IMG/VR virus record: IMGVR_UViG_3300022188_000059
Coordinates: 1-22,242 of that record
DNA from: a virus
Direction: 5' to 3' (one strand)
Length of the DNA stretch: 22,242 bases
Positions 2,065 to 21,095 of this stretch are shown here, in pieces (the first letter of the stretch is position 1; each line of letters begins with the position of its first letter). The position numbers and the translations under genes were made by a program. The notes below the pieces were generated by a model, which did not search any database, was not told the DNA's origin, and saw only the letters and a program-made list of their open reading frames with translations.

Positions 2065-2277
2065 TTAATCCTTGAGTAACTCGTCGACGTTCATAATATG
2101 TATTTTATACTTTCTTTGAAAAGCCTCTATGTCCAAACCCTTGGGGCTCGCTGCCTGTTTTCTCGCTTCCTTCTTTACTTCTTCCATCGTGAGATTGCTA
2201 CCAGTGGCAGTCTGCTCTGTCTTGGACGCAGATGTGGTGTTTTCTTCCTCTTCTGCTGACATAAAATCGAAATCCAT
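2065..2277 (-). CDS. Small acidic protein of unknown function carrying an in-frame palindrome
   Basis: A 70-aa protein starting MDFDFMSAEEEE, with a strong AGGAGG five bases before the ATG. I do not recognise a family. The N-terminal half is acidic and disordered; the C-terminal half (EEVKKEARKQAASPKGLDIEAFQRKYKI) looks helical. Residues TATGSN at about 22-27 are encoded by a dispersed palindrome (2192-2213). The MDFDF start echoes the MDFNF start of the terminase small subunit gene. It sits between terminase large subunit and portal behind its own sigma-70 promoter, so it may be a small head-assembly or packaging accessory protein. Confidence 0.75.
   Translation of the reverse strand: MDFDFMSAEEEENTTSASKTEQTATGSNLTMEEVKKEARKQAASPKGLDIEAFQRKYKIHIMNVDELLKD
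2192..2213. repeat. Dispersed palindrome copy, in frame in the 70-aa gene
   Basis: AGATTGCTACCAGTGGCAGT plus CT on the plus strand. Read on the minus strand it gives T-A-T-G-S-N inside the 70-aa protein. Confidence 0.92.
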
Positions 2278-2309
2278 TTTTCCTCCTATTTATATTTTCT
2301 ATTACCTAC

Positions 2310-2338
2310 ATTATACCACACTATAAAGGGAATGTCAA
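2310..2338 (-). promoter_or_regulatory. Sigma-70-type promoter for the 70-aa/portal transcript
   Basis: On the minus strand TTGACA (2338-2333), a 17-bp spacer and TATAAT (2315-2310): both boxes are perfect and TGG precedes the -10 as an extended TGn element. It lies about 35 bp upstream of the 70-aa gene's start codon. Confidence 0.88.
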
Positions 2339-2371
2339 GAACTATTTTCATGCCCGTATTTTTAAATATTC

Positions 2372-3757
2372 TTAAATATAGTCCTCTAAAGGGTTATACG
2401 CCATGTTAATTGCTTCAAGTTCTTCGAGTTCATCATACCTCTGGTCTGCATAAGTAGGTAGCATTTGGTCTTGTGTAGCCCTCAACCCCATCGCACAGGC
2501 TAACTGTCTAAACCCATCCGCGAAATGCTTTGACCAATCACGCACAGGAGAATCTGAGAACTTTTCTTTCTTCTCATCCCAGTCTCTACGGTATGATTTA
2601 AGCCCCTCAATCCCATCAGCACACTTGTTTCTATCGAACCAACACTTAGGCAAAATCTGTCGCATCGCATGATGCCCTTCTGATAGCCCGTACTTGTCAG
2701 CTAATCCTGTTTTAGGAACCGTAATAATGTTTTGTAAACCAAGATTCTCGAACGTCTCTCTTCGTGTCGTGCCTGTACTATACTCATGCACCTCTACATC
2801 ATGCGGAAAGAAGTGTTCTTCATAAGTGTACGGTTTCCTGTTCACTACATTAACATAGTGCGGAGCTGCTTTTCTATTCGCATAATAGCAATCAATCAAC
2901 CTTATCTCTCTACCTGCAAACTGGGTAAACCATATTACATTAGTATCATCAAAGCCTATATCCCAAGCGGTTGATACTTTAAGATTCGGCTCCCACGGTA
3001 CGTTTGTTATTCTACCCTCTTTACTGGCGGTATCCATCAAATCACCAACAATAGACCCCACAAGACCAGCATCAAAACTACAATAATACTCTTGCTGAAT
3101 CAACTCCTCTGGCATCCCAGACTGACGTTCGGCTTCGATATCTTCGTCGGTAATGACACGTTCTCCAGTCCCTTTACGGGTGTCCTCAACAGTAAGGAAC
3201 TCCGAAAACCACTTCTTGTTCGTCTTAGCATAGTTATACATCTTCCATGCTGTCCCTCTACCTCTGGGAGTACCGTTAAACAACGCCCATCCTTTGTTCT
3301 CGAGGAGTATAGGTCTGAGGTAATTCCATGCAGCAGGTTTATGAAGTGGAAACTCACTAAAGATTACTCCAACTGGATTCGCTCCGACAATGGAATCAAT
3401 GTTATCAGACCCCACCATTCTAATAATAGAACCATTAATAAGCTCCAGCACCATCTGCTGGTTCTCTCTCCGCTTCACCAGCTTCTCTGGAAAATGATCA
3501 ATGAATCTAAAGCCATCAGAGTCCATGCCTTCCCATATAATCAATCGTGCCTGTTTATAATATGGAAGGATATAGAAATAAGTCCCAACTCTCTTAAACG
3601 CTTCACGAGCAAGGATATTTATAAAGGTCTTGTCCTTACCTGCTCTCCGGTGCCATATCACAAAGCCCCTATTATACCCTTTAGACAGAGCATTATAGGT
3701 GTCCTTCTGATAATCACGAGGTGTAAAGTTATGCGGTATAGTTATAACATTATCCAT
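2372..3757 (-). CDS. Terminase large subunit (packaging ATPase/nuclease)
   Basis: A 461-aa packaging motor. Walker A is WHRRAGKDKT at 35-44. The Walker B region is VIFSEF at about 131-136, with the FSE form and following AAWNYLRPIL typical of this terminase group. The ATPase coupling motif is NGTPRGR at 161-167. The RNase H-like nuclease domain begins at AWDIGFDD (D266, D270) and ends near RDWSKHFADGFRQL, which supplies the late acidic residue. The protein cuts concatemeric DNA and pumps it through the portal. Its ATG shares one base with the stop of the small-subunit gene (TAATG), so the pair is translationally coupled. No key motif is missing. Confidence 0.94.
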   Translation of the reverse strand: MDNVITIPHNFTPRDYQKDTYNALSKGYNRGFVIWHRRAGKDKTFINILAREAFKRVGTYFYILPYYKQARLIIWEGMDSDGFRFIDHFPEKLVKRRENQQMVLELINGSIIRMVGSDNIDSIVGANPVGVIFSEFPLHKPAAWNYLRPILLENKGWALFNGTPRGRGTAWKMYNYAKTNKKWFSEFLTVEDTRKGTGERVITDEDIEAERQSGMPEELIQQEYYCSFDAGLVGSIVGDLMDTASKEGRITNVPWEPNLKVSTAWDIGFDDTNVIWFTQFAGREIRLIDCYYANRKAAPHYVNVVNRKPYTYEEHFFPHDVEVHEYSTGTTRRETFENLGLQNIITVPKTGLADKYGLSEGHHAMRQILPKCWFDRNKCADGIEGLKSYRRDWDEKKEKFSDSPVRDWSKHFADGFRQLACAMGLRATQDQMLPTYADQRYDELEELEAINMAYNPLEDYI

Positions 3758-4266
3758 TATTCAAATATATCCTTTATACTCACCTCTGGTGGAGGAGATG
3801 ACCCCTTCAAAGGGGAGGAGGAATTATCCTCTGAAGGAGTCTGACTGCCACCGGTGTCAATCTGAAGTTGACTAAGCTCCGATTGCGAAGGGTCGATGGC
3901 AGGTGCTGCATCATACTTTTGTGGATGTTGAGTATCGGTTGTTTGGTGTTGTGTTTTAGTAGTGGTATTCGCCTCCATCGCGATAGTAGCCCCGAACTGA
4001 TCAATGAGAGTCACTTTCAAATCAGCCAGATCATCAAGCTGCACACTCTTAGGAATGAGCTTGGCAAGCAATGCTAAGAACGCTTTGGGATCAATCGTTG
4101 CTTGTGTTATCAACCACGATGCCCCACCGAGTTGATTATACACCTCAAGAACAGAAGTAGCAAACTTACGTGGTGTCATCTTTACTGTGTCTTTTATATT
4201 CGGACCAACATATTTAGGTTGGTCTGGTATGTCTGGTTGCGGCTCAGTTAGAAAATTAAAGTCCAC
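3757..4266 (-). CDS. Putative terminase small subunit
   Basis: A 169-aa protein directly upstream of and overlapping the terminase large subunit gene. The central segment GGASWLITQATIDPKAFLALLAKLIPKSV resembles the conserved helix-turn stretch of a group of phage terminase small-subunit-like proteins (NPxAFLxLLxKxLP). The C-terminal 70 residues are Ser/Pro/Thr/Gln rich and probably disordered. They contain IDTGGS, encoded by a dispersed palindrome. The start is GTG at 4266-4264, chosen because GGAGG lies a few bases before it and no better ATG exists. The expected role is recognition of packaging DNA; assignment rests on position and the weak motif match. Confidence 0.75.
   Translation of the reverse strand: MDFNFLTEPQPDIPDQPKYVGPNIKDTVKMTPRKFATSVLEVYNQLGGASWLITQATIDPKAFLALLAKLIPKSVQLDDLADLKVTLIDQFGATIAMEANTTTKTQHQTTDTQHPQKYDAAPAIDPSQSELSQLQIDTGGSQTPSEDNSSSPLKGSSPPPEVSIKDIFE
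3843..3862. repeat. Dispersed palindrome copy, in frame in the terminase small subunit gene
   Basis: GACTGCCACCGGTGTCAATC. Read on the minus strand it encodes I-D-T-G-G-S in the disordered C-terminal tail. It is the same variant type (GATTGACAC) as the copies at 7957 and 8177. Confidence 0.85.
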
Positions 4267-4286
4267 GTTCCCTCCTTCTCTTCTTG

Positions 4287-4307
4287 GGTTGCTACTGGTG
4301 GCAGTCC
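4287..4307. repeat. Dispersed palindrome copy in the leader of the terminase small subunit gene
   Basis: GGTTGCTACTGGTGGCAGTCC. It lies between the promoter at 4335-4363 and the GGAGG/GTG start at 4266, a placement also seen for several plus-strand genes. Confidence 0.85.
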
Positions 4308-4334
4308 CGTTTCGTGTGAAAATATAATGTCTTT

Positions 4335-4363
4335 AGTATACCATGTTTAAGGTTGAATGTCAA
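4335..4363 (-). promoter_or_regulatory. Sigma-70-type promoter for terminase genes
   Basis: On the minus strand TTGACA (4363-4358), a 17-bp spacer and TATACT (4340-4335), with TGG before the -10. The -35 is followed by TTC as in the promoter at 2310-2338, so the two minus-strand promoters are close relatives. Confidence 0.85.
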
Positions 4364-4398
4364 GAGTTAAAATAAAGGGCAAAATAATAAATAAATAG

Positions 4399-4416
4399 TT
4401 GGCACGATACTTGCAT
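4399..4416 (+). promoter_or_regulatory. Sigma-54 (RpoN/SigL) promoter
   Basis: TTGGCACGATACTTGCAT matches the sigma-54 consensus TTGGCACR-N4-TTGCW throughout, with the required GG-N10-GC spacing (GG 4401-4402, GC 4413-4414). Transcription would start near 4426 and run rightwards into the hairpin-rich region. No upstream activator site was identified. Confidence 0.7.
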
Positions 4417-4441
4417 AGGGAGAATCCTGGATTTGAGAGTG

Positions 4442-4467
4442 GATTGCCACCAGGCTGCGGGGCAATC
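4442..4467. repeat. Hairpin with palindrome-family arms and an expanded loop
   Basis: GATTGCC (4442-4448) pairs with GGCAATC (4461-4467) across a 12-nt loop. The arms match the dispersed palindrome but the centre is replaced by a longer loop. It lies about 16 nt downstream of the predicted sigma-54 start. Confidence 0.7.
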
Positions 4468-4491
4468 AGGTATTGGAAGAGGGGTGAGTAC

Positions 4492-4563
4492 ATGGGCAAA
4501 CTGATTGGGGTTGTATTAGAGGGGTATACGGTGCGGTGGCAATCTGGTTGGAGGGTAGGCTGA
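4492..4563 (+). CDS. Possible 23-aa peptide downstream of the sigma-54 promoter
   Basis: ATG at 4492 reads MGKLIGVVLEGYTVRWQSG and ends at TGA 4561-4563. A GAGGGGTGA lies at a workable distance before the ATG. The frame runs through the left arm of the hairpin at 4538-4575. This is the only frame with a usable ribosome site near the sigma-54 promoter. No family is recognised and a chance frame this short is quite possible. Confidence 0.25.
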   Translation: MGKLIGVVLEGYTVRWQSGWRVG

Positions 4564-4575
4564 TACCAGATTGCC
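4538..4575. repeat. 11-bp perfect inverted repeat, 16-nt loop
   Basis: GGCAATCTGGT (4538-4548) pairs with ACCAGATTGCC (4565-4575). The arms contain the family half-site GGCAATC/GATTGCC but face each other the opposite way, as if the palindrome were turned inside out. Confidence 0.85.
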
Positions 4576-4590
4576 AACTCAGAACAGTTA

Positions 4591-4609
4591 GACTGCCACC
4601 AGGACAGTC
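4591..4609. repeat. Dispersed palindrome copy, degenerate
   Basis: GACTGCCACCAGGACAGTC: outer arms GACTG/CAGTC kept, right inner arm degraded. Confidence 0.7.
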
Positions 4610-4610
4610 C

Positions 4611-4627: not shown

Positions 4628-4639
4628 TGGGTAAGCTAT

Positions 4640-4658
4640 GATCGACACCAGTGGCAGT
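4640..4658. repeat. Dispersed palindrome copy, degenerate
   Basis: GATCGACACCAGTGGCAGT: central CACCAGTG and the right arm kept, left arm altered. Confidence 0.65.
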
Positions 4659-4696
4659 ACGGGGGCGACTTAAAATGCTAATTTTTCTTAGTCGAA

Positions 4697-4822
4697 TTTT
4701 TTAAATTGAAAATTTTAAATTGAAAATTTAGGAGGCTAACTTTTTAAATTGAAAATTTTTAAATTGAAAATTTAGGAGGCTAACTTTTTTAAATTGAAAA
4801 TTTTTTAAATTGAAAATTTAGG
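4697..4822. repeat. Three 44-bp AT-rich direct repeats (candidate origin iterons)
   Basis: Units lie at 4697-4740, 4741-4784 and 4785-4822, the last truncated after AGG. Each contains two copies of TTTAAATTGAAAATTT, so AAATTGAAAA occurs six times. Units one and two end in TAGGAGGCTAAC. Units differ mainly in T-run length. The AGGAGG is not followed by a start codon, so this is not a ribosome site array. The form fits initiator-binding iterons or a DNA-unwinding element. Confidence 0.85.
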
Positions 4823-4938
4823 TCCCGCCTACATGCGTCCTTATAATAATAAATACGTCATCCAGTTTGGGGGTATGCCCCTCTGAAGCCCGCCCCATCA
4901 AATGCTATTCTGATATTTACTAAATGCCATTCATTTAA

Positions 4939-5046: not shown

Positions 5047-5053
5047 TGAATGG

Positions 5054-5073
5054 GACTGCTGCTGGTGTCAATT
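5054..5073. repeat. Dispersed palindrome copy, degenerate
   Basis: GACTGCTGCTGGTGTCAATT. It sits immediately right of the 18-bp array. A lone half-site GGCAGTCT follows at about 5174-5181. Confidence 0.7.
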
Positions 5074-6053: not shown

Positions 6054-6869
6054 ATGACTGAAGACAAAAAACCAGTAACAACTTTAAAAAGCGTACTCAA
6101 CAGCAATGAGCTTGAAATGTTAAATCAAGCTCGGGGAGTTTGGCAAAAATTGACCGGTGATTCAACAAACCGCCTGCAAGATATGGCAGATATCGGGTAT
6201 GCCATTGAACTGATTTACTCTAAGGGTAGAAAGAAAGGGCTAAAAAAGCAGGAGATAACGACAATGGTCAATTTGTCATTCCCAGGTTTGAGCGCCGTTG
6301 AGCGTAGCGAATTTCGCAAGCTAAACAAAAATATCGAGCAAGTATCTTGTTTCGTACGTGATACGGGCATAAAATCATGCAATACATCGTACCTGATTTC
6401 GTCATACGTTAAGGCAGTCAAAGAAGACTGCCAATCCTGCAAGGATATTGAAGCGGAATTGAGAAGGGGGTTGATTAAGCTCGCATCTGATTCAAAAGAA
6501 AGTGACGCACCTGATTCAAAAGATTCAGACGATTCAAAGGAAAGCGACGCACCTGATTCAAAAGATTCAGACGATTCAAAGGAAAGTGGTGCACCTGATT
6601 CAGATAATTCAGATGATGGCAAAAGAAAAAAAATCATTTTAGGAGACGTGATTAAGAAGGAAGGATACGACAACATTGTTAGACCGATAAAATCGGCTGA
6701 CATTGTTGAAAATTTCGGGCTGATAGTAAATCAGTTAAAAACCTTGTTTAATGAGGATAAATTGAGCGCGGATCAAAAGATTGAAATTGACAAACACGGG
6801 ACATCTCTGCTAAAACACATGGCAGGAATCGACGCAAGTAGCAGCGAGTTTGATAAAATAGCAATTTAA
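6054..6869 (+). CDS. Hypothetical early protein with internal Ser/Asp repeats
   Basis: A 271-aa protein preceded by GGAGGG. The N-terminal ~140 residues look folded and mostly helical. They include a basic patch (YSKGRKKGLKKQE) and three cysteines in the QSCKDIE and IKSCNTS areas. Residues about 146-190 are three copies of a 14-aa acidic repeat, DSKESDAPDSKDSD, acting as a highly charged flexible linker. The C-terminal ~80 residues (from KRKKIILGDVIKKEGYDNI) look helical again. I do not recognise the family. Two domains joined by an acidic linker would fit a DNA- or protein-binding early protein. Confidence 0.75.
   Translation: MTEDKKPVTTLKSVLNSNELEMLNQARGVWQKLTGDSTNRLQDMADIGYAIELIYSKGRKKGLKKQEITTMVNLSFPGLSAVERSEFRKLNKNIEQVSCFVRDTGIKSCNTSYLISSYVKAVKEDCQSCKDIEAELRRGLIKLASDSKESDAPDSKDSDDSKESDAPDSKDSDDSKESGAPDSDNSDDGKRKKIILGDVIKKEGYDNIVRPIKSADIVENFGLIVNQLKTLFNEDKLSADQKIEIDKHGTSLLKHMAGIDASSSEFDKIAI
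6489..6614 (+). repeat. 42-bp tandem repeat, 3 units, coding
   Basis: Units at 6489-6530, 6531-6572 and 6573-6614, each 14 codons. The first two are nearly identical and the third has diverged, with Asp to Gly and Lys to Asp changes. Confidence 0.85.
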
Positions 6870-7143: not shown

Positions 7144-7177
7144 GGTTACAATGTTATAGAGATATAACATTGTAACC
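7144..7177. repeat. 15-bp hairpin with GAGA tetraloop; AATGTTATA dyad copy 1
   Basis: Arms 7144-7158 and 7163-7177 pair perfectly around GAGA, a GNRA loop. The inner part is AATGTTATA-N4-TATAACATT. The hairpin is followed by a run of A, not T, so it is not a standard plus-strand intrinsic terminator. An RNA-stabilising 3' stem or a protein site is more likely. Confidence 0.85.
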
Positions 7178-7242: not shown

Positions 7243-7283
7243 TTTAGCTGTAATGTTATAGAAAATATAACATTACAGCTAAA
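7243..7283. repeat. 18-bp hairpin with GAAAA loop; AATGTTATA dyad copy 2
   Basis: Arms 7243-7260 and 7266-7283 pair perfectly, with inner AATGTTATA-N5-TATAACATT. Again an A-run follows. Confidence 0.85.
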
Positions 7284-7627: not shown

Positions 7628-7656
7628 TTGACACGGGCATAGAAATATGCTATAAT
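7628..7656 (+). promoter_or_regulatory. Consensus sigma-70-type promoter
   Basis: TTGACA (7628-7633), a 17-bp spacer and TATAAT (7651-7656) with TGC before the -10: both hexamers, spacing and extended -10 match consensus. It would drive the 7760 gene and the replication operon beyond. The 12-bp inverted repeat starting at 7658 covers the likely start site. Confidence 0.92.
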
Positions 7657-7697: not shown

Positions 7698-7704
7698 AAA
7701 ACAA

Positions 7705-7728
7705 GAATGTTATAGTTCTATAACATTC
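7705..7728. promoter_or_regulatory. AATGTTATA dyad copy 3
   Basis: GAATGTTATAG, TT, CTATAACATTC: a perfect 11-bp dyad about 40 bp downstream of the likely start of the 7628 promoter. The tight centre suits a DNA operator better than an RNA loop. Confidence 0.75.
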
Positions 7729-7759
7729 AATCGATCAAATTCAGACGGGAGGACAAATC

Positions 7760-7954
7760 ATGGAGCAAAGAAAATCAATCAAAGAAACATTAATGAAGCG
7801 TGATGGGACATCGGCAGAAGAAGCCGATACCATGGTATCCGAAGCCCATGTGGAATTTCTGTATTATCTGGATAACGGCGACATGGATGGGGCGTATAAT
7901 ATTTGTGAGGAGTTTTTTGGTTTGGAGCCTGACTATATAGACGAGTTCATCTAA
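7760..7954 (+). CDS. Small acidic phage protein (FGLEPDY type)
   Basis: A 64-aa acidic protein, first gene after the consensus promoter, with GGGAGG before the ATG. The layout resembles a widespread small phage protein of unknown function: KETLMKRDGTSAEEADTMV, then a helix, then a C-terminal YNICEEFFGLEPDYIDEFI ending. The two predicted helices and acidic C-terminus are the conserved features. Function unknown. Confidence 0.8.
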   Translation: MEQRKSIKETLMKRDGTSAEEADTMVSEAHVEFLYYLDNGDMDGAYNICEEFFGLEPDYIDEFI

Positions 7955-7956
7955 AC

Positions 7957-7980
7957 CGGATTGACACTGGTAGCAATCCG
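7957..7980. repeat. Dispersed palindrome copy upstream of an SD
   Basis: CGGATTG-ACACTGGT-AGCAATCCG, directly followed by AAAGGAG. The 29-bp block from GATTG through AAAGGAG recurs exactly at 8177-8205. Confidence 0.92.
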
Positions 7981-7995: not shown

Positions 7996-8213
7996 ATGGA
8001 ACGACTTTTAAAGAGAGTGTTAGAAGAAGGAAGGATACGACAACAGCGGCAGAAGTTGTTGTTGATGAAGTGTATAAAAAATTACTTGAAGTACTGGATG
8101 AAGAAAGTCCGCCGTATGTTTTAGTGGGCAGACTGCACACACTTATTGATGGAACTTTGCTGCCGGAAAGGGGTAAGATTGACACTGGTAGCAATCCGAA
8201 AGGAGGTGGTTAA
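7996..8213 (+). pseudogene. Small gene with a disrupted or shifted reading frame
   Basis: An ATG at 7996 with AAAGGAG opens a frame reading MERLLKRVLEEG, then turns basic and stops at 8122-8124. A different frame is open from at least 7974 to TAA 8211-8213 and looks far more protein-like: TTTAAEVVVDEVYKKLLEV, then LDEESPPYVLVGRLHTLIDG. It has no start codon of its own. Joining the frames by a -1 shift near 8031 gives a sensible ~72-aa protein. The join falls inside a 22-bp stretch (8024-8045) identical to 6654-6675 in another gene, suggesting a recombination scar. The C-terminus (IDTGSN) comes from the palindrome at 8177. Sequencing error or programmed frameshift are alternatives. Confidence 0.55.
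8177..8196. repeat. Dispersed palindrome copy with an orphan SD
   Basis: GATTGACACTGGTAGCAATC, identical to the copy at 7957 and likewise followed by CCGAAAGGAG. Here the AGGAGG has no proper start codon after it; the next ATG is 16 nt on and stops after two codons. Confidence 0.9.
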
Positions 8214-8221
8214 CGGCGCAG

Positions 8222-8243
8222 AATGTTATAGATCTATAACGTT
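8222..8243. promoter_or_regulatory. AATGTTATA dyad copy 4
   Basis: AATGTTATA (8222-8230), GATC, TATAACGTT (8235-8243), one mismatch. The inner GTTATAGATCTATAAC is a perfect 16-bp palindrome. It lies in the leader of the ParB-like gene. Confidence 0.75.
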
Positions 8244-8272
8244 TAAGTACAATTCATTTTTTAAGTACAATT
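8242..8272 (+). repeat. Two 13-bp direct repeats in the ParB-like gene leader
   Basis: TTTAAGTACAATT at 8242-8254 and 8260-8272, followed by a partial TTTAAG. The first overlaps the end of the dyad at 8222-8243. Confidence 0.7.
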
Positions 8273-8305: not shown

Positions 8306-9415
8306 ATGAGTTTCGTAAAAGTAAAATTGAGTGATATCAAAGACAACCCGTACCGCAATGACGAGAGCTATACATATGACAAAGCAAAAATTGCGGCACT
8401 TGCTGAGTCAATCGGGGACACAAGTTTTTGGGAGAATCTTCTTGCCCGTAAAACAAAGGAAGGTGTAATCCAGCTTGCGTATGGACATCATAGACTCCAG
8501 GCATTGAAGGCGTTAAATGCGGAAGGATACGAAGAGTATTCAGTAATTAAAATTAATGTGAGACCAGAGAATCAGCTCACAGACGAAAGAATGTTGAAAA
8601 TCTTCGCACAGGAGAATAAGGATGACTGGGGGGAGTCTCCGCAGAATCTTTGCATGACAGTGTTACAGTTGCAGGCACATTTGGAAGGGCTTATTAGAGC
8701 AAGCAAGGATAAAGACCAGTTTCTGAAGAAAATCAGCGACCCTGGGGCGTTGTCTGTTGACGACCGGAGTTTTACCAGAATGAAAAATAATGGTGTCGGA
8801 GCGTCTATCATTGCGCAGTTTCTTGGAGACACTTGGTCACGCCAGACTATTCAAGACGCACTTCAAGTAATTGCCAATGATGAAGCCACGTTTAAACTGG
8901 CTCAGAAACTGCCTTCAGTAACACTTGCCAATAGGTTCCAGAAGTTGGTAACAAAAGGAGTAGAAGGGAAAGGCAAAAGTAAAGTGGTTACCATGTTTGA
9001 CGAAGACGTGCAGCGGAAAGTCGCTGACAAAATTGTCAAAGAAAATCTGACACGGGCAGAAGTAGAAGAGGCAGTCAAGATCAGCAAGGATAATGCTGAC
9101 GGGCTTGACCCTTTACTGGCTATTAACACCGTAGTCGAAAAGAAAAAAGCGGCGTTAAAAGAAGTCAAGGAGAAGATTGCGGCTGATAAACCAGCCCCAA
9201 AAACACCCGTTGAAAAAGTACAGGTAGCCCTGGAAAAAGTACTGGTACTGGTACGCAAAGAAAGAGTCAATTTGAGAGATGAAGATATCAAATTGATTAA
9301 AAGCGGCATTAATCTTGTTATTGAGGTACTTGAAGCTCCGATCGAGGATTTTTTGGAAGACGACGAAGACGTACTTGACGAAGGCGAACCCGATAACGAT
9401 ATGCCTTTAGGCTAA
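8306..9415 (+). CDS. ParB-like nuclease-domain protein
   Basis: A 369-aa protein with AAGGAGAG before the ATG. The N-terminal domain is ParB/Srx-like: VKLSDIKDNPYR, a helix with ALAESI, then LLARKTKEGVIQLAYGHHRLQAL with the GHHR box at 60-63. This box is where ParB-fold proteins bind nucleotide or DNA. A long helical middle region follows. Residues from about 270 are rich in Lys/Glu/Val and probably a coiled coil; the last 20 are strongly acidic (EDDEDVLDEGEPD). Phage ParB-like proteins act as DNA-binding partition/regulatory factors or nucleases; which applies here cannot be told. It is the first large gene of the replication operon. Confidence 0.85.
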   Translation: MSFVKVKLSDIKDNPYRNDESYTYDKAKIAALAESIGDTSFWENLLARKTKEGVIQLAYGHHRLQALKALNAEGYEEYSVIKINVRPENQLTDERMLKIFAQENKDDWGESPQNLCMTVLQLQAHLEGLIRASKDKDQFLKKISDPGALSVDDRSFTRMKNNGVGASIIAQFLGDTWSRQTIQDALQVIANDEATFKLAQKLPSVTLANRFQKLVTKGVEGKGKSKVVTMFDEDVQRKVADKIVKENLTRAEVEEAVKISKDNADGLDPLLAINTVVEKKKAALKEVKEKIAADKPAPKTPVEKVQVALEKVLVLVRKERVNLRDEDIKLIKSGINLVIEVLEAPIEDFLEDDEDVLDEGEPDNDMPLG

Positions 9416-9438: not shown

Positions 9439-9466
9439 TGTAGACTGCCACCAGTGGCAGTCTACA
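9439..9466. repeat. Dispersed palindrome copy, 13-bp perfect arms
   Basis: TGTAGACTGCCAC, CA, GTGGCAGTCTACA: one of the longest perfect members. It lies between the ParB-like and DUF2800 genes, 7 bp before AAAGGAG. Arms have extended beyond the core with matching flanks. Confidence 0.95.
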
Positions 9467-9484: not shown

Positions 9485-11119
9485 ATGGGGGAACATGCGT
9501 ATTTCTCACCCTCGGGAGCATCTCGCTGGATTGAATGCCCAGCGAGTTTGTACTTGTCAGAAAAGATTATCGACCGGACAAGTTCATATGCTCATGAGGG
9601 GACAATTTGCCACGACATAGCGGCGAACTGCTTGACCAAAAAACAACAAGCTTCCGACTATGCGGGGCAAATTGTTGAAGGAGTCGCCATAACCCAAGAA
9701 CTCGTCGACGGCGTTCAGATGTATGTCGATGAAGTTCAGGGGTTAACACAGGAATATTCCTGCATTGGTGGACGAATTGAACATAAAGTGGTAATAACGG
9801 AACATTGCTGGGGTACTATTGATGCGATGCTGTGGAATAAAGACACAGTTATAACGATTGATTTAAAAATGGGAAAGGGGATAGTGGTAGCAGCAGAAGA
9901 TAACAATCAGTTGAAAATATACTCAGTCGGGGCTTTAAGGTGGCTTCTTGATGAATATAAAATCATGCCCGAAAAAGTAATTAACATTATTATCCAACCG
10001 AGAACACCGAATCCAATCAGGAAGACGGAACTCGACCGAAAAGAATTAGGCGATTGGTTTAACAACAAAGTGCACCCAGTTATTAAAATGCACGAAAAGG
10101 GCAAACCTTCCCCTTTCCCGTGTAACCCAGGGGAAGCACCGTGTAAGTGGTGCAAGGTAAAAAGGTGCAAAGCAAGAGCGCAGAAGAATATCAACGATGC
10201 CGCCCGTGCTTTTGCTCCGTTTACTAAAGTTGAAACGCCAAAGATTGAGACTGCCACCAGTGGCAGCTCCGTTAGCCCAAAGCTTGCGGTGTTGACTATC
10301 GCTGAAATGGCGGAGTTAAAAAAGTCTTTTAAAGCGATACAGGGGTGGATTAAAGACATAGAAGAGACCATTAGAACTGAAGCCTTGAACGGGGTAACAA
10401 TCCCAGGATATAAACTTGTTGAAGGGAGGTCAGATCGGGCATGGAAAGATACTGAAGAGGAAACGGTACTCTTTTTGGAAGGGGTGGAAGTTAAAGGAAA
10501 ACCGATTGACCCCTACACAAAAAAGCTTATTTCTCCTACTCAAGCAATAAAATTAATGGGTAAGAAAATAGCAGAAAAAAGTGCTATTGTAGACTGGGTT
10601 ATAAAACCACCAGGAAAACCTACACTTGTTCTGGCGACAGATAAGCGTCCAGAATATAAATTAAAGGGGGAAATAGAAAATGATTTTAAAAAAGTAGAGC
10701 CTGTTAAAACCTTGAGCAACACAGAGCCTCTTTTGGTAGACGAAGAAAAAGAGGTTCCCCAAATGAGCGTGATGCAACGTATGCAATTTGCGGAGTTTGA
10801 TAACGAGGAGACTGAGGAGACTGCCACTGGTAGCAATGCGGAACAAGTCGAACAAGAAAAAGGAATAGTCATTGAACCAGATGACACTCCTGTTTCGACA
10901 ATTATGTCAGTCAGCGCTTGCGCAACGTCAAGTCCGCCGGCAAAAGGGACTAAAAGATACCAGTTATTAGGATTGGGAGGAGGTGAGGTTACCATACGCC
11001 AAGCAGCAGTAAAGCTTGGCTGTAGCGAGAACATGATTAAGATGCACTTGAGGTATTTGAACGAACGTGATGGGTACGGGTACGAAGTATTTTCAGACGG
11101 AACTTTTAAAGTATTTTAA
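9485..11119 (+). CDS. DUF2800 family RecB/Cas4-like nuclease with C-terminal extension
   Basis: A 544-aa protein. The N-terminal ~400 residues match the phage DUF2800 family, PD-(D/E)XK nucleases of the RecB/Cas4 type. Visible are SPSGASRWIECPAS at 8-21, EGTICHDIA with H43, GTIDAMLW with D113 and IDLKMGKG with D126/K128. C18 with C220, C223 and C228 (PCKWCKVKRC) gives the one-plus-three cysteine layout of iron-sulfur nucleases; cluster binding is inferred. Two palindromes add TATSGS (about 256-261) and TATGSN (about 445-450) in linkers. The last ~50 residues (EVTIRQAAVKLGCSENMIK) resemble a helix-turn-helix and are not part of the usual family core. It adjoins the SSB gene, as usual for DUF2800. 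Confidence 0.88.
   Translation: MGEHAYFSPSGASRWIECPASLYLSEKIIDRTSSYAHEGTICHDIAANCLTKKQQASDYAGQIVEGVAITQELVDGVQMYVDEVQGLTQEYSCIGGRIEHKVVITEHCWGTIDAMLWNKDTVITIDLKMGKGIVVAAEDNNQLKIYSVGALRWLLDEYKIMPEKVINIIIQPRTPNPIRKTELDRKELGDWFNNKVHPVIKMHEKGKPSPFPCNPGEAPCKWCKVKRCKARAQKNINDAARAFAPFTKVETPKIETATSGSSVSPKLAVLTIAEMAELKKSFKAIQGWIKDIEETIRTEALNGVTIPGYKLVEGRSDRAWKDTEEETVLFLEGVEVKGKPIDPYTKKLISPTQAIKLMGKKIAEKSAIVDWVIKPPGKPTLVLATDKRPEYKLKGEIENDFKKVEPVKTLSNTEPLLVDEEKEVPQMSVMQRMQFAEFDNEETEETATGSNAEQVEQEKGIVIEPDDTPVSTIMSVSACATSSPPAKGTKRYQLLGLGGGEVTIRQAAVKLGCSENMIKMHLRYLNERDGYGYEVFSDGTFKVF
10247..10269. repeat. Dispersed palindrome copy, in frame (DUF2800 gene, first)
   Basis: Core ACTGCCACCAGTGGCAGCT, read T-A-T-S-G-S at the boundary between the nuclease cysteine motif and the next domain. 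Confidence 0.9.
10819..10837. repeat. Dispersed palindrome copy, in frame (DUF2800 gene, second)
   Basis: GACTGCCACTGGTAGCAAT, read T-A-T-G-S-N in an acidic linker before the C-terminal extension. Confidence 0.9.
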
Positions 11120-11872: not shown

Positions 11873-11900
11873 ATCGGATTGCCACGAGTGGCGATCCGAT
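11873..11900. repeat. Dispersed palindrome copy, 13-bp arms
   Basis: ATCGGATTGCCAC, GA, GTGGCGATCCGAT with one G-T pair. It lies between the SSB gene and the next SD. The centre is GA instead of CA or TG. Confidence 0.92.
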
Positions 11901-12814: not shown

Positions 12815-14776
12815 ATGACTAAATTATGGTTGGATTTTGAAACGTACAGTGACTTAGATATCCAAAAAGCTGGAATGTATAAGTATGTAAACCACCCCTC
12901 TTTCCACCCTTGGTGTGCGGCGTATGCTATTGACGACGAAGATACTAAATTATGGGTCCGGGGGGATACTGCGGAAGATTTACATAAGAGTTTATATGAC
13001 CCTGAAATAAAAATTTATGCACACAACGCTGATTTTGAACATGTTGTTTTGAAGTCGATGAAATACGACCTACCCGTTAAAAGATTTGTGGATACACGAG
13101 CTTTAGCAGCTACTTTTGGCTATCCTTTAGGCTTAGATAAATTCTGTAAAGCAGTAGGCTCACCGGTACTTAAAAGTGCCAAAGGTACAAGACTACTTAA
13201 TAAGCTCTGTAAACCCCAGAATAAAACTGTAAAAAATCCGTTAGGTCGGTGGTTTCCAGATACTGCTCCACAAGACTTTTCTGACCTATATTCTTATTGT
13301 GTCCAAGATGTTGAGTCAATGAGGCACGCGGTTAACAAATTACCTACTGATGAACTGTCTTCTTTGGAGCAGTACATCTGGGGGCATACAGTTCTACAAA
13401 ATGAACGTGGGGTAAAGATAGACATAGAAAGTGTTAAGAAGATCAGAAAAATTTTAAGGATGTTTAAATTAAAAGGAGAGCAAAGACTCCAGACTGCCAC
13501 TGGTGGCACTGTGAAAACCCCTAAACAAGTCAAGAAACTAAAAGAGTTTCTCAACGATAGGGGGCTTGACATGCCCAATTTAGCTAAAGCAACAGTCGAG
13601 GAGTATCTTGCGGGTGATACGCGTACTATATGCCGAGAAGTTTTGGAGTTAAGAAAACAATTAGCACATAGTAGTGTAGCTAAGTTCGATAAAATGCAGT
13701 TGATGTGTGAAAAAGATAGTAGAGTACGAGGTAATCTTGTCTATCATGGGGCGCATACTGGGAGATTTGCAGGAAGGGGGGTACAATTACATAACCTTCC
13801 CAGAGCGAGTGTAGCTAATCCTGATGAAGTTATAGCTGATTTCAATTTGTTAAGCTACCAAGATATTCTTGATAGATACCCAGATGTAAACGAAACGGCG
13901 ATGGCTTTGATAAGACCGATGATAACTGCTGAATCAGGAAGTCAACTAATTGTCGCAGATTATTCGAGCATTGAGAATAGAGTGCTCCATTGGTTGGCAG
14001 GAGATGAAAAAACTCTTGATGACTTTAAAAAAGGGGTATGTCAATACAAAATGTATTCTGCAAGTAGGCTCAATATTAAGTACGAAGAGGTAACTAAAGA
14101 ACAGAGAACAGAATCAAAACCTGATGTATTAGGGTTGGGATACGGCGGGGGCTATCGTGCTTTAGTAAGTGTTGCAGCAGGGTATGGAGTTGCATTGGAC
14201 AATAAAAGCGCACAGGAGCGGGTAAATTTTTATCGTAAGAAGTACCATTTGATACCTAAGTTATGGAAAAAGGTTTTCAATAAAGTTTTGGAAGCTGTCG
14301 AAACAAAAGACCCACAGGTACTTATTACTCCTACTGCACAATTAGAATTTAGATGCGCCGGCGGGTATTTGTTTATTCTACTACCCTCAGGGAGGAGGTT
14401 ATCATACCCGCAAGTCAAACTCAACGCAACATGGGAGATTAAAGTTAAAGGAAGACAAGTTCCTATGTCCTCAGTAATAAGCTATATGGGCGTGCGACAA
14501 AGCACGTGGGCAAGAATAGGAACACATCCTGGGATGCTTGTTGAGAATATCGTGCAAGCACTGGCGCGAGATATTTTAGTTTATGGTATGCTTTGCGCAG
14601 AACAGGCAGGATATAAAATCATAGCTTCTGTACATGATGAAGCAATAGCAGAGGTCGATGAATCAGAGGGAAATCTTGAAGATTTTTGTGAGTATCTATG
14701 TATGAAACAAAAATGGGCGGAAACAATTCCATTAAAAGCGGAAGGGTATGTATCTAAAAGGTACAGAAAGGATTAA
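12815..14776 (+). CDS. Family A DNA polymerase with 3'-5' exonuclease domain
   Basis: A 653-aa phage-type PolA that copies the phage genome. The exonuclease domain has Exo I LDFETYSD (D7, E9), Exo II AHNADFEHV (D73) and Exo III YSYCVQDVESM (D165), all catalytic acids present. The polymerase domain has TGRFAGRGVQLHNLPR at 315-330, motif A VADYSSIENRVL (D382), the O-helix RTESKPDVLGLGYGGG at 431-446 (R431, K435, Y443) and motif C ASVHDEAI (H607, D608). A palindrome encodes TATGGT at about 227-232, just before the conserved TPKQVKKLKEFL, between the two domains. The AAGGAGG site is clear. Confidence 0.96.
   Translation: MTKLWLDFETYSDLDIQKAGMYKYVNHPSFHPWCAAYAIDDEDTKLWVRGDTAEDLHKSLYDPEIKIYAHNADFEHVVLKSMKYDLPVKRFVDTRALAATFGYPLGLDKFCKAVGSPVLKSAKGTRLLNKLCKPQNKTVKNPLGRWFPDTAPQDFSDLYSYCVQDVESMRHAVNKLPTDELSSLEQYIWGHTVLQNERGVKIDIESVKKIRKILRMFKLKGEQRLQTATGGTVKTPKQVKKLKEFLNDRGLDMPNLAKATVEEYLAGDTRTICREVLELRKQLAHSSVAKFDKMQLMCEKDSRVRGNLVYHGAHTGRFAGRGVQLHNLPRASVANPDEVIADFNLLSYQDILDRYPDVNETAMALIRPMITAESGSQLIVADYSSIENRVLHWLAGDEKTLDDFKKGVCQYKMYSASRLNIKYEEVTKEQRTESKPDVLGLGYGGGYRALVSVAAGYGVALDNKSAQERVNFYRKKYHLIPKLWKKVFNKVLEAVETKDPQVLITPTAQLEFRCAGGYLFILLPSGRRLSYPQVKLNATWEIKVKGRQVPMSSVISYMGVRQSTWARIGTHPGMLVENIVQALARDILVYGMLCAEQAGYKIIASVHDEAIAEVDESEGNLEDFCEYLCMKQKWAETIPLKAEGYVSKRYRKD
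13490..13511. repeat. Dispersed palindrome copy, in frame in the DNA polymerase gene
   Basis: AGACTGCCACTGGTGGCACT, read T-A-T-G-G-T between exonuclease and polymerase domains. It is the only copy inside a catalytic replication enzyme next to a conserved motif. Confidence 0.9.
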
Positions 14777-14777: not shown

Positions 14778-14963
14778 ATGAGCACAAATGATGATTTGTT
14801 AAATGAGATAATAACAGAAGTGGAGTACCAGAAACATTTAACTCACCCCAACAGTATAGAAGATGTCATAAGAAGTTGTGGCAGAATTATTCAGTATGCG
14901 TCATTAATAAAAATAGGTAAGATTACAAGACTGCCACTGGTGGCGACCCGAAAGGATAATTGA
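14778..14963 (+). CDS. Small hypothetical protein with palindrome-derived tail
   Basis: A 61-aa protein. ATG 14778 follows AAAGGA and the polymerase stop by 1 bp; an earlier ATG overlaps the polymerase gene and lacks an SD. It is helical (MSTNDDLLNEIITEVEYQK, then EDVIRSCGRIIQYASLIKI). The last 10 residues (RLPLVATRKDN) are encoded by a palindrome plus the next gene's SD, in a different frame from the other in-frame copies, so the original stop was probably overrun. Family unknown. Confidence 0.6.
   Translation: MSTNDDLLNEIITEVEYQKHLTHPNSIEDVIRSCGRIIQYASLIKIGKITRLPLVATRKDN
14929..14947. repeat. Dispersed palindrome copy before an SD
   Basis: GACTGCCACTGGTGGCGAC, followed by CCGAAAGGA as at 7957 and 8177, leading the 14963 gene. 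Confidence 0.88.
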
Positions 14964-17188: not shown

Positions 17189-17338
17189 ATGATAACACAT
17201 ACTTGTGGCGGAAAAATGACAGTACTAAAAAAGAATAAGATGCGTATTGTGTACCAATGTGATGTGTGTAAAAAAATATTAGTAGTACATGGGCGGACTG
17301 CTACCAGTGGCAATCAAAGGAGTCGTAATGGAGAATAA
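17189..17338 (+). CDS. Small zinc-ribbon-like protein
   Basis: A 49-aa frame starting directly after the helicase stop (TGA-ATG), with AAAGGAG about 10 nt upstream. It reads MITHTCGGKMTVLKKNKMRI, then VYQCDVCKKILVVHG. The H-x-C-G-G and C-x-x-C pairs flanking a short basic stretch are zinc-ribbon-like, although the first pair has His in place of Cys. The C-terminal TATSGN is palindrome-derived. The frame overlaps the start of the next gene by 11 bp. A competing 17-aa frame at 17185 has better SD spacing but no visible character. Confidence 0.5.
   Translation: MITHTCGGKMTVLKKNKMRIVYQCDVCKKILVVHGRTATSGNQRSRNGE
17296..17315. repeat. Dispersed palindrome copy before the primase-helicase SD
   Basis: GACTGCTACCAGTGGCAATC, directly followed by AAAGGAG. 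It is also read in frame (T-A-T-S-G-N) by the zinc-ribbon gene. Confidence 0.92.
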
Positions 17339-20057
17339 AACTACTATTACTCTTGTACGTTCTCGTATAAAAAACAGACCTTATTGTAAAACCGATGGTA
17401 AATATCTCGGTCCAACTTGGAACAATGATATAGGTTTGCAGACTATACCTAACACCCCTGAAGAAATGTTTAACCTTTGTTCTATCTTGCTTACTGCCAG
17501 CAATACTTGTGTTGTTACTGGTGCTGCAGTCAGACCAGAGATACTAAACACTGATAGAACCCTGAAGAACTTTAAAGAAGAACCAATATCTTATATCGTG
17601 TTAGATTTAGATAAATACGAAGTACCTAACTTAAAGAAACTTGAGTATAATCAAGTAGTGAAAGAAGTAGATAAGTTTATTAGAGAGTATCTGCCTCCAG
17701 AATTTCAACGAGTAACTTACACACTATGCTTCAGTTCTTCTTTTCTTATAAAAGAGAAACCATATCTGAGATGTCATATTATCTTTATGTTAGAAGAGCC
17801 ACAATATCCACGTGAGATAGGTGTATGGATTAAAAAGAATGGCGTCCCTGCTGACGCTACTTTCTATTTTAATTTAACGCAACCTATCTTTACAGCACAA
17901 CCTCTATGGGTAGATTTGGTTGACCCTCTAACTCTTAAAGACCCTAAGTTCCCCAGATTAAGTTACATTAAAAAAAATAAAACACATGTAGCTCCAGGGT
18001 GGCAACCATATTTTGTACCTGAAAAGAATTTAACATCTTCTGAAATGCCTACTGCTCGTATGTTGCCTGGTAAAGTAGGGTCATTTTGTAGGAGGGTATC
18101 ACCAGAAAAAATACTATCCTCAATGGGCTACACTCATGTTGATAGCAACAGATACTTAGCCCCTGAATCAAACACTGGTATCCCTGGTGCGCTTGTTTTT
18201 GGTAATGGGTATGTTTATTCGCATCATGACGGCGACCCTATAAATCAGATAATAGGGGAAGTTTTTAAGCACAAACGCAAGAGTTTAAATGCTTATGATA
18301 TCTCTTATAATTGGGCAATGCTTAATAAAGAAAGAGACTCCTCTATACTAAAAGAATTTGAGTTCATGCTTAATCAGGCTATTCTTGGGGACAGTGTGTA
18401 CCAAGATGAAGTTCAACAAGAACTGGTGTACCGAACAGAATGGCTTAGTGAAGGAGAATATAAAGGAGACAACCGGAAAATAATAGATAGTATAATTTTA
18501 GATATGTATGATTTGCATTTGACGGAGTTATCAAGAGACTATCTTTTTAACGCTATTAAAATGCAAACAAAACATATAACTCTTGCGTCAATAAAAAATG
18601 CTTGGAAAAACTTAAAGCGTGAGCAAGCGACACAGCAGGATACTTACGACCCCGAAGCTAACTTACGCCACATGGCTAACATATTTAAAAGACAGAAAAT
18701 TATATACTCACACCATAAAACTGTAACAGGTAATTTCTGGTGCTACTTTTCTGACCGGCGTATCTGGAAATGTTGTAACATATCGCAAACAAAAGCTTTT
18801 ATTTACAACCATATCCACGCTGCTATACCTTTAAAAGTAGAGATTAGTTATAGCAAATCAGAACAACTCGCGAATATCATCACCCGTGAAGCTTGTTTAT
18901 CTATGGCTGATTTTCCTAAAGGACAAGGATGGGCTTTCAACGAAGGCAGTTACGGCATAATCATGTCCGATATCTTTTCAGATAGCCCCCAGTGGCAGTC
19001 TAAAGATTCAGTTAGAACACTAAGAAAAGAAGATTATATATATAAAGAGTTACCCGTTACTTATAAAGAATGGACAAACGCAGAGACTCCGGATAAATAC
19101 ATAGATTTTTTAATAGGGTCTTGCGAAGAGGATTTGGAAACAGTTGAATTAATTAGGGAGTACGGCGGTTATATTTTAGCTGATTCGTATTACATACATA
19201 AGATGTTAATCATTGAGGGTGTACCTGGGAGTGGCAAAAGTATCTTAGCTAAAGTACTGCAAGCTTGCGTAGGTTCCCAATACCATTCAGCGGTATCTAT
19301 TTCAGGGTTAGCTAATAGGTTTGGATTGGGTACGCTTCCTGGAAAAAAGTTAGCAGTGATGTCGGAAGCAAGAGGAGTCGATTTCAATACATTAAAAGCT
19401 TTAGTACCCATACTATTAAAAATCGTAGGTCAAGACTACGTGGATACCGAAGCGAAAGGAGTTGACATAGTAACGGAACTTTTAGAGTGCAAGATCATGA
19501 TGATGACGAACAAAACTCCTGTACTGCCTGATGATACAGGGGCGTTAGCACAGAGACTAATGATGATAAAATTTAATAAAGGGTTTAGAGGAACACCTGA
19601 AGAGGTACTTGGGTTAGATAGACAGATAATACAAACAGGATTAGCAGGAATTATAAAATGGCATTTAACAGGGCTTGAACGTCTTAGTGAACGAGGTGTT
19701 TTTATTGAGCCTGAGAGGGGAAGAAAAGCTAAGGAAGCATTGATAGAACAGATTGACCCACTCAAGAACTACATCACAAAATATTTTACAATAGATTTTA
19801 ATAGCACACAAACAGAATGGATGCGCCAAAGAGAATTTATACTGTACTTCAGAGCATATTGTTTACGAATAGGTCAACCTACTACTGAGAAAAGTATTCA
19901 AAAAAGAGCATCAATAAGAAGTGTTAGAACTTTATTTCCTAACGTATATGTTAAACGTATTCGGAGAGAGGATAAAACAGTTGCAGCGTTAGCAGGAATG
20001 ATACCTAAAATTCAATTAGGTTTAGAATTTGCGGATGAAATTTATGACTTACAATAA
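17328..20057 (+). CDS. Primase-helicase, D5/SF3-type
   Basis: A 909-aa protein. ATG 17328 was chosen for the AAAGGAG 5 nt upstream; the longer in-frame GTG lies inside the palindrome leader. The N-terminal ~300 residues probably hold an archaeo-eukaryotic-type primase fold: ISYIVLDLDKYEV with two close aspartates, and KPYLRCHIIFML with a histidine, fit that fold loosely. The C-terminal third is an SF3/VirE-like helicase: MLIIEGVPGSGKS with Walker A at 631-638, KLAVMSEARGVDFN as the Walker B region, and CKIMMMTNKTPVLPDD as the polar sensor motif. The protein would unwind the fork and make primers for the PolA-type polymerase. A half palindrome encodes SPQWQS. Confidence 0.9.
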   Translation: MENKTTITLVRSRIKNRPYCKTDGKYLGPTWNNDIGLQTIPNTPEEMFNLCSILLTASNTCVVTGAAVRPEILNTDRTLKNFKEEPISYIVLDLDKYEVPNLKKLEYNQVVKEVDKFIREYLPPEFQRVTYTLCFSSSFLIKEKPYLRCHIIFMLEEPQYPREIGVWIKKNGVPADATFYFNLTQPIFTAQPLWVDLVDPLTLKDPKFPRLSYIKKNKTHVAPGWQPYFVPEKNLTSSEMPTARMLPGKVGSFCRRVSPEKILSSMGYTHVDSNRYLAPESNTGIPGALVFGNGYVYSHHDGDPINQIIGEVFKHKRKSLNAYDISYNWAMLNKERDSSILKEFEFMLNQAILGDSVYQDEVQQELVYRTEWLSEGEYKGDNRKIIDSIILDMYDLHLTELSRDYLFNAIKMQTKHITLASIKNAWKNLKREQATQQDTYDPEANLRHMANIFKRQKIIYSHHKTVTGNFWCYFSDRRIWKCCNISQTKAFIYNHIHAAIPLKVEISYSKSEQLANIITREACLSMADFPKGQGWAFNEGSYGIIMSDIFSDSPQWQSKDSVRTLRKEDYIYKELPVTYKEWTNAETPDKYIDFLIGSCEEDLETVELIREYGGYILADSYYIHKMLIIEGVPGSGKSILAKVLQACVGSQYHSAVSISGLANRFGLGTLPGKKLAVMSEARGVDFNTLKALVPILLKIVGQDYVDTEAKGVDIVTELLECKIMMMTNKTPVLPDDTGALAQRLMMIKFNKGFRGTPEEVLGLDRQIIQTGLAGIIKWHLTGLERLSERGVFIEPERGRKAKEALIEQIDPLKNYITKYFTIDFNSTQTEWMRQREFILYFRAYCLRIGQPTTEKSIQKRASIRSVRTLFPNVYVKRIRREDKTVAALAGMIPKIQLGLEFADEIYDLQ
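18987..19001. repeat. Half/degenerate dispersed palindrome inside the primase-helicase gene
   Basis: CCCAGTGGCAGTCT keeps the right arm and centre only. It is read in another frame (S-P-Q-W-Q-S), so it may be a decayed copy or chance. Confidence 0.45.
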
Positions 20058-20061
20058 ACTC

Positions 20062-20083
20062 AGATTGCTACCGGTGGCAGTCT
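20062..20083. repeat. Dispersed palindrome copy before the ligase SD
   Basis: AGATTGCTACCGGTGGCAGT plus CT, followed 5 bp on by AAAAGGAG. It fills the whole gap between primase-helicase and ligase genes. Confidence 0.92.
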
Positions 20084-20101
20084 AATAAAAGGAGAAATAT
20101 A

Positions 20102-20977
20102 ATGGCGTGTAAAAGACAAGGAATAATGTTAGCAACTTTGCTCACGAAGAAACTTTTTGATAAACTTCCTAAACCAGTTTTAGTACAACCAAAAATTGAA
20201 GGAGACAGATTAAGAGCCAAGATAGATAACTACGGGGAACCAACTTTGTTTAGTTCAGGAGCCAAGATAAGAACATGTGTCCCCCACATACAAGAAGAAC
20301 TAAAAGAAGTGTGTGGGTTGTGGAGAGGGATTGAGTTGGATGGTGAAATGTACAAGCACGGGATGGAGCATAGTGAAATACGAAGTATTGTAGGGAGGAC
20401 AAAAAACTTACATCCTGATCATAAAAAAATAGAGTACCATATCTTTGATATCGTTTCGACAGAAGCACAAAACCATCGTACTGCAACATTACAGGAATTT
20501 TTTAAAGATAGGTATTTTGAGTATCTGAGATACGTACCCTCGTGTCAAGTATGTAATTGGGAAGATTTACAAAGATACTATGCTATTTTCATTAGTGAGG
20601 GGTACGAAGGTATAATCATAAGACACCCTTATGCAGTGTATCAAAGAAAAAAAACTAGAACTCTACTAAAGTTTAAACCCAGAGCAAGTGAGAGCTTCAG
20701 AGTATTAAGTGTCATAGAAGAGAAGTCTAAAGACGGGGTACTTAAAGGAACTTTCGGAGCGTTTTGCTGTGAGACTCCAGAAGGACGAGTATTTACAGTA
20801 GGTTCCGGACCAACTAAATACCAACGTACTTTAATATGGGGTAACAAAGAACTATTTGTAGGGAATGAGGTGAAGATACGTTTCCAAAACTATACTAAAA
20901 TTCGTAAAGTCCCCAAGATGCAATCAATAGACAAGGGTTGGTTGAAAAGTGTACAACAACAATTAGGAAGTGCGTAA
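20102..20977 (+). CDS. ATP-dependent DNA ligase
   Basis: A 291-aa ligase of the small phage type, sealing nicks after lagging-strand synthesis. Motif I is QPKIEGDRLR, with adenylated lysine K31. Motif III is IELDGEM at 77-83, IIIa is YHIFDIV at 112-118, motif IV is EGIIIR at 169-174 and motif V is LLKFKP at 188-193. An OB-fold follows, with GTFGAFCCETPEGRVFTVGS and VGNEVKIRFQNYT. Motif I has KIEG where most ligases have KxDG. The conservative Asp-to-Glu change may be natural for this lineage. The AAAAGGAG before the ATG is clear. Confidence 0.92.
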   Translation: MACKRQGIMLATLLTKKLFDKLPKPVLVQPKIEGDRLRAKIDNYGEPTLFSSGAKIRTCVPHIQEELKEVCGLWRGIELDGEMYKHGMEHSEIRSIVGRTKNLHPDHKKIEYHIFDIVSTEAQNHRTATLQEFFKDRYFEYLRYVPSCQVCNWEDLQRYYAIFISEGYEGIIIRHPYAVYQRKKTRTLLKFKPRASESFRVLSVIEEKSKDGVLKGTFGAFCCETPEGRVFTVGSGPTKYQRTLIWGNKELFVGNEVKIRFQNYTKIRKVPKMQSIDKGWLKSVQQQLGSA

Positions 20978-21095
20978 CACGAATGCTTGTACAGGATGTC
21001 CGTTACAATACGATACCAGAGTTGTAAAAAAAAAAATGACTCAGACTGCTACTGGTGGCAGTCTGAGACGCTACACCGGAGTAAAAAAAAAATGA
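20970..21095 (+). pseudogene. Fragment repeating the N-terminus of the following zinc-finger gene
   Basis: The frame from GTG 20970 reads VRNTNACTGCPLQYDTRVVK, then KKMTQTATGGSLRRYTGVKK, and stops at 21093-21095, overlapping the next ATG. ACTGCPLQYD closely matches ACAGCPLEFE of the next protein, and the DNA is alike (GCTTGTACAGGATGTCC at 20985 versus GCTTGTGCAGGATGCCC at 21107). Between the two lie a palindrome and two runs of 10-11 A. A one-base change in the second A-run would fuse both into one frame. It is either a partial duplication, or the true N-terminus joined by slippage or sequencing error. Confidence 0.5.
21040..21067. repeat. Dispersed palindrome copy between duplicated CxxC segments
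   Basis: CTCAGACTGCTAC, TG, GTGGCAGTCTGAG with one G-T pair; 13-bp arms. It shares the CTCAGACTG outer arm with the terminator copy at 21540. Confidence 0.93.

Follow-up and report, generated by a model that had tools for sequence, protein, structure and literature searches.

The palindrome-bearing window

The window, i.e. the whole 22,242-nucleotide stretch of IMG/VR virus record IMGVR_UViG_3300022188_000059, encodes a portal protein, a terminase, a ParB-like protein, a DUF2800 exonuclease, a DUF2815-type gene and a family A DNA polymerase, together with a VRR-type nuclease, an SNF2-type helicase, a DUF5906 primase/helicase and a ligase; the names DUF2815, VRR and SNF2 were assigned by inspecting the translations and by synteny. 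A short palindrome is scattered within and between these genes, at 19 sites matching GAYTGCYACYRGTRGCARTC with at most 3 mismatches (Table 1), the null of 100 dinucleotide shuffles averaging 0.03 sites and never exceeding 1.

Other features were also observed in the window. The left end (1-112) is a tandem repeat of the 12-nt unit GTGTAGCCGGTG, and comparable low-complexity repeats (PPVDPPVD, GGEGGGEGG) occur near the head-protein start in relatives. AT-rich tandem repeats (AAATTGAAAATTTAGGAGGCTAAC) at 4697-4830 lie in a long non-coding region and are possibly an origin, and ORF 6054-6869 contains three 42-nt repeats (6489-6614) encoding DSKESDAPDSKDSD. A second palindrome family, TGTTATAG..CTATAACA, is found upstream of parB at 7148-7174, 7249-7275, 7704-7730 and 8220-8246 and is a possible operator of another regulator. 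The start of the zinc-ribbon gene is duplicated and truncated at 20978-21110 (NACTGCPLQYDTR versus TACAGCPLEFEDK). Perfect TTGACA-17-TATAAT promoter-like sites at 7628-7656 (+) and 2310-2338 (-) suggest that the host sigma-70 RNA polymerase is used.

Table 1. Palindrome sites and the candidate binding protein in the window, with sites and motif versions from related records
Feature	Position	Strand	Basis or reading
Palindrome upstream of 86-aa head-protein ORF (129-389, -)	381..400		exact match
Palindrome in 70-aa protein linker	2193..2212	-	frame Q-T-A-T-G-S-N
Palindrome in terminase small subunit C-terminal linker	3843..3862	-	frame Q-I-D-T-G-G-S
Palindrome between promoter-like site 4335-4363 (-) and terS start	4287..4306		pattern match
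Degenerate palindrome, non-coding region	4640..4659		3 mismatches
Degenerate palindrome, non-coding region	5054..5073		3 mismatches
Palindrome between stop of ORF 7760-7954 and next RBS	7959..7978		pattern match
Palindrome at end of broken gene, ~110 bp upstream of parB start	8177..8196		pattern match
Orphan ParB/Noc/KorB-like protein, candidate palindrome binder	8306..9415	+	PHROG ParB match 1e-6 and fold match
Palindrome between parB and DUF2800, upstream of RBS	9443..9462		pattern match
Palindrome in DUF2800 gene linker	10249..10268	+	frame E-T-A-T-S-G-S
Palindrome in DUF2800 gene, variable acidic stretch/tail	10819..10838	+	frame E-T-A-T-G-S-N
Palindrome, intergenic	11877..11896		2 mismatches
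Palindrome in polA	13492..13511	+	frame Q-T-A-T-G-G-T
Palindrome, intergenic, directly upstream of ORF 14963	14929..14948		pattern match
Palindrome in tail of short zinc-ribbon ORF, directly upstream of primase start	17296..17315	+	frame R-T-A-T-S-G-N
Decayed palindrome in DUF5906 primase/helicase	18981..19000	+	other frame, D-S-P-Q-W-Q-S
Palindrome between primase and ligase genes	20063..20082		intergenic, pattern match
Palindrome in truncated duplicate of zinc-ribbon gene start	21044..21063		terminator-like on - strand
Palindrome past zinc-ribbon ORF, then GAGTTTTT	21546..21565		pattern match
Hydrophobic-frame sites	L027 1933 and 3323, L030 509, L044 9345		signal-peptide-like N-termini
Palindrome version with window ParB			GATTGCCACCAGTGGCAATC
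Palindrome version with G013 ParB			GATTGCTACCTGTAGCAATC

Consensus, spacing and distribution

The palindromic unit is about 20-24 bp long. Either pyrimidine or either purine is accepted at positions 3/18 and 7/14, the flanks (0/21) have the same leaning, and the centre is nearly always a YR step (CA 112, TG 98, CG 10, TA 5). The exact GAYTGCYACYRGTRGCARTC pattern was found in 58 stretches, on 36 IMG/VR contigs besides the window, a sample that consists of fragmentary records from a single phage clade. Exact copies predominate in this larger set and decayed ones are few, with about 15-23 palindromes per record, or one every 1-2 kb. Wholly intergenic sites account for 92 of the 187 unique sites, the non-coding share of the sequence being 15%, and intergenic copies lie a median of 14.5 bp after the previous stop and a median of 25 bp before the next start. 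In five records the sites are spaced more evenly than random placement would give (p 0.001-0.05; CV 0.48-0.63 versus 0.93 at random), and gaps between intergenic copies are filled by intragenic ones (p 0.008 and 0.004, and 0.11 in a third genome).

A scan of 84,980 genomes returned stray sites only, the matches in Desulfobacteraceae MAGs amounting to 1-2 copies per genome, and a host chromosomal repeat was therefore ruled out. One contig assigned to a Thorarchaeota MAG (L074) appears to be of phage origin and mis-binned. In the examined parts of 64 portal relatives that lack the palindrome, no other comparable dispersed palindrome was seen, and no report of the palindrome or of such an arrangement in phages was found in the open-access literature.

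Reading frames of the intragenic copies

In the initial annotation of the window, eight in-frame copies were said to share a single reading frame, outside which the palindrome would not be tolerated. The five copies in secure genes (2193, 3843, 10249, 10819 and 13492) do share one frame and all read T/I-A/D-T-[GS]-[GS]-[SNT]. The copies at 8177 and 21044, one in a broken gene and the other in a duplicated gene fragment, do not lie in convincing genes and carry little weight, and a copy in the DUF5906 primase/helicase (18981), which had been overlooked, reads DSPQWQS; the DUF5906 palindrome is also present in the homologues L033, L028 and L038. The zinc-ribbon copy (17296) is alignable with L151 at the DNA level.

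Frame use is likewise non-random in the larger set. Among unique intragenic sites, TAT[GS][GS][SN] accounts for 55, L-P-x-V-A-V for 7 and D-C-H-x-W-Q for 3 (chi-square p 2e-17), as counted with a home-made codon-based gene caller and with orthologous sites partly counted repeatedly. A plain stop-to-stop frame count is contaminated by copies lying just upstream of start codons; under the stricter ORF criterion that was used, the preferred frame holds 27-34 sites versus 2-5 and 4 (p 1e-7 to 1e-9). When each protein family is counted once per frame the ratio becomes 15:6:2 (p 0.003), and random positions gave no phase bias.

Tolerance in one frame only is, however, too strong a statement. The hydrophobic frame, L-P-L-V-A-V, falls in signal-peptide cores, at residue 11-12 of signal-peptide-like N-termini, and the Trp frame, D-S-H-Q-W-Q-S, coincides with a conserved Trp of the DUF5906 protein and also occurs in a repeat protein containing DNxWxS motifs; these exceptions fit the proteins in which they occur. 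In the preferred frame, the sequence itself shows the degenerate DNA positions to be silent or to cause only I/T, G/S and N/S changes, which makes it also the mildest of the frames.

Comparison with homologues lacking the palindrome

As had been proposed, many copies lie in variable, gap-rich linkers, namely those of the 70-aa protein (palindrome in 14 of 14 aligned sequences), the terminase small subunit (11 of 11) and the DUF2800 protein, as well as the acidic tail of the latter. The accompanying idea of insertion in the manner of Rickettsia palindromic elements was not borne out, since alignable protein regions mostly differ by 0-1 residue in length from homologues without the site, and since the unit is short and about half of the unique sites are fully intergenic. 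Examples without lengthening are FRRLATKTATGGYSDKY versus FRRLVANNRSGGYSDSY, GTGLTLVANLDHLEGEE versus GSGFTTFDGLDHLEGEE and, in polA, QRLQTATGGTVKTPKQ versus EFSEATCGSVETPRQ; the polA copy (13492) leaves the length unchanged relative to three homologues. At the FRRLATKTATGGYSDKY/FRRLVANNRSGGYSDSY site the peptide residues pre-exist without the palindrome, which contradicts the insertion idea there, and the homologue L046 already has the G-G-Y residues without a palindrome. The polA gene of L151 retains the inner bases GCCACTTGTGG, so the site may once have held a palindrome that has since decayed, instead of never having been occupied. The predicted polA structure was a poor model (mean pLDDT 43).

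Exceptions to constant length are found in floppy linkers and at some intergenic sites, and it is these that favour the initially suggested alternative, a selfish or mobile palindrome of the RPE, MITE or REP type whose insertion is tolerated in a single frame. Relative to L009, the intergenic sites L035 2704 and L023 5129 are clean 22-bp presence/absence differences, which could be explained by insertion or deletion and count against an origin in place; L045 has two palindromes 27 bp apart; and at the DUF2800 copy 10249 the window is about 7 residues longer in the linker than L151 and L033. We nevertheless consider such an element improbable, given a unit of just 20-24 bp, no target duplication seen and no transposase identified, the near-constant length of alignable protein regions, the residues pre-existing in L046, the even and gap-filling spacing, and a switch of all copies in concert in one phage (G013, below).

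Half-site variation and the switched motif of phage G013

The two half-sites vary nearly independently, paired counts being near the expectation for independent halves with a slight paired excess only at positions 3/18 and 7/14, and the compensatory base-pair changes that would mark an RNA hairpin were not found. In sense orientation, A.C mismatches at positions 3/18 are not rarer than G.U (39 versus 23). The lack of covariation and of a G.U preference points to DNA rather than RNA as the form that is read. The sense-orientation centre has a mild excess of CA over TG (85 versus 56, p 0.018), a weak overall bias that counts against a DNA site because it is unexpected for a fully symmetric one.

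Action of the palindrome in the transcript, as a terminator tip, RNase III site or attenuator, would agree with the position of intergenic copies between stop and RBS, with the terminator-like scores at 21044 and 4287, with contigs in which every centre is CA in sense (L035, L036), and with a longer inverted repeat in L012 and L036 that has the palindrome as its tip. Such an RNA role is nonetheless very improbable in view of the missing covariation and the mismatch counts above; moreover, a T run accompanies few copies and an Rfam search gave no match. At L012 1347 and L036 689, compared with L051 and L049, the palindrome stands in place of the loop, and the arms of the longer inverted repeat are complementary in either version.

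In the divergent phage G013, all 16 of 16 copies carry T at position 7 and A at position 14 (the GCTAC...GTAGC form) and the centre is relaxed. Five of its intragenic copies in long ORFs are in the preferred frame and one is in the signal-peptide frame, and the encoded peptides are altered with the motif, e.g. W-TATGSN, K-IATSSN and E-IATGSD. Because the switch is common to genic and intergenic copies, it argues for DNA-level selection by a trans-acting reader, an argument drawn from one independent switch; and because the residues follow the concerted DNA change, the linker in the proteins appears to be a side effect of that selection. The ParB of G013 is 32-36% identical to the other ParBs, and its other proteins diverge too (about 24-56% identity).

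A ParB-like candidate reader

The ParB-like protein of the window has an N-terminal (CTPase-type) domain in which the GxxRxxA motif takes the form GHHRxxA, invariant in six of six homologues. Its Pfam HTH_ParB match is weak (0.0017, under the curated cut-off), and a PDB sequence-profile search returned nothing real, so that fold comparison was needed. The model matched Noc (7nfu; Z 11.7, rmsd 3.6 over 139) and KorB (8qa9; Z 10.3, rmsd 3.4 over 138), and the alignment of Noc 7nfu_B over model residues 1-190 (rmsd 3.6) places an HTH after the N-domain. No relative was detectable in GenBank phages, and distant relatives sought by peptide pattern were only 25% partial matches, without palindromes.

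The window, record G015 (14.8 kb) and all five palindrome records of at least 34 kb encode the protein, which is absent from the examined parts of the 64 palindrome-less portal relatives. A ParA ATPase (PF13614) was found in 0 of 7 records, which may be fragments, versus 14 of 14 controls; judged by a ParA partner, the protein would not qualify as part of a ParABS partition system. No tyrosine integrase was found either. Genes common to G013 and the near-complete records include no other obvious sequence-specific HTH regulator, and from this together with the co-occurrence we infer that ParB is the reader and binds the palindrome. All detected ParB genes of the subfamily come from one phage clade, and their co-occurrence with the palindrome may therefore reflect shared descent.

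G010 has no palindrome just upstream of parB, a point against the ParB reading. Short ORFs in two records (G007:C1:20569-20649 and G009:C1:17574-17654) encode 27 residues resembling the ParB HTH stretch 179-205 and are perhaps a decoy or partial duplicate.

Proposed function of the palindrome

The conserved sites, the independent and symmetric half-sites, the G013 switch, the even spacing and the ParB co-occurrence all speak for a DNA site. On balance, the scattered palindromes probably serve as recognition sites in double-stranded DNA for a homodimer encoded by the phage, its orphan ParB-fold protein (8306-9415) being the likeliest candidate. The half-sites, the G013 switch, the spacing and the gap filling are equally compatible with an operator read by a different phage or host protein, such as an immunity repressor or an architectural or host nucleoid protein, and some proteins of these phages have no annotation; we regard a different reader as unlikely, as host genomes hold the motif only as stray copies and the near-complete records share no obvious sequence-specific HTH protein besides ParB.

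If ParB is the reader, its clamp loading and spreading might silence or stagger transcription and/or organise the phage DNA. Where no intergenic gap is nearby, a site would arise within a gene, mostly via substitution, and selection at the protein level would then filter frame and place, admitting TAT[GS][GS][SN] to linkers and turns, LPLVAV to signal peptides and DSHQWQS where a Trp is needed. More tentatively, we envisage a ParB-type site array that is required at intervals of about 1-2 kb to silence or organise the genome; selection for it would be strong enough to overwrite coding sequence, the specificity of one protein would dictate TATGGS/TATGSN, LPLVAV and DSHQWQS peptides in the polymerase, terminase, exonuclease and others, and a specificity switch would rewrite all of them together.

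Relation to known systems

The nearest working models are KorB-OB of plasmid RK2 and the stoperators of cluster A mycobacteriophages. KorB is a ParB-family CTPase clamp with OB sites (PMC11790492). Both systems have a ParB-fold protein with an HTH and short palindromes scattered over a mobile genome, KorB acting from a distance, whereas the sites described here are denser, many are intragenic in a preferred frame, the genome is that of a phage and no KorA partner was identified. OB is a shorter palindrome with no YR spacer. Noc/NBS and ParB/parS resemble the phage system in fold and in having multiple scattered palindromes, and differ from it in the two-base YR spacer, the longer site, the phage genome and the ParA that was not found. 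An inner CAC...GTG is common to parS and the phage palindrome.

Stoperators are 13-bp, asymmetric sites, mostly in one orientation, for a monomeric repressor (PMC6550527, PMC9283540). They too are dispersed in many copies per phage genome, with a motif that varies between phages along with the binding protein, but the present palindrome is near-symmetric over 20-22 bp, has both central steps relative to transcription and probably has a ParB-like reader. Rickettsia palindromic elements are inserts of 100-150 bp which, like the phage sites, place palindromic DNA within genes with the frame intact, often at solvent-exposed positions (PMC3767692); the phage sites are far shorter and residues are mostly replaced. 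DNA uptake sequences of Pasteurellaceae and Neisseria provide an earlier example of a short DNA motif that has a function and is biased in orientation and placement within reading frames (PMC2346458), though they are non-palindromic, chromosomal and unrelated in function.

Dispersed sites of the parS, OB and stoperator kind are already known, and by this comparison the phage palindrome array would belong with them. It would offer a clear natural case in which selection on a DNA-binding site shapes many proteins at once, with the G013 switch as a built-in control: short segments of otherwise unrelated proteins are set by a signal in the DNA, nearly always in the frame in which the added linker, Thr-Ala-Thr-Gly/Ser-Gly/Ser, is harmless. 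Orphan ParB-type proteins without ParA are widespread and little understood (PMC12704722), and the array suggests that such a protein can run a genome-wide set of sites in lytic-looking phages.
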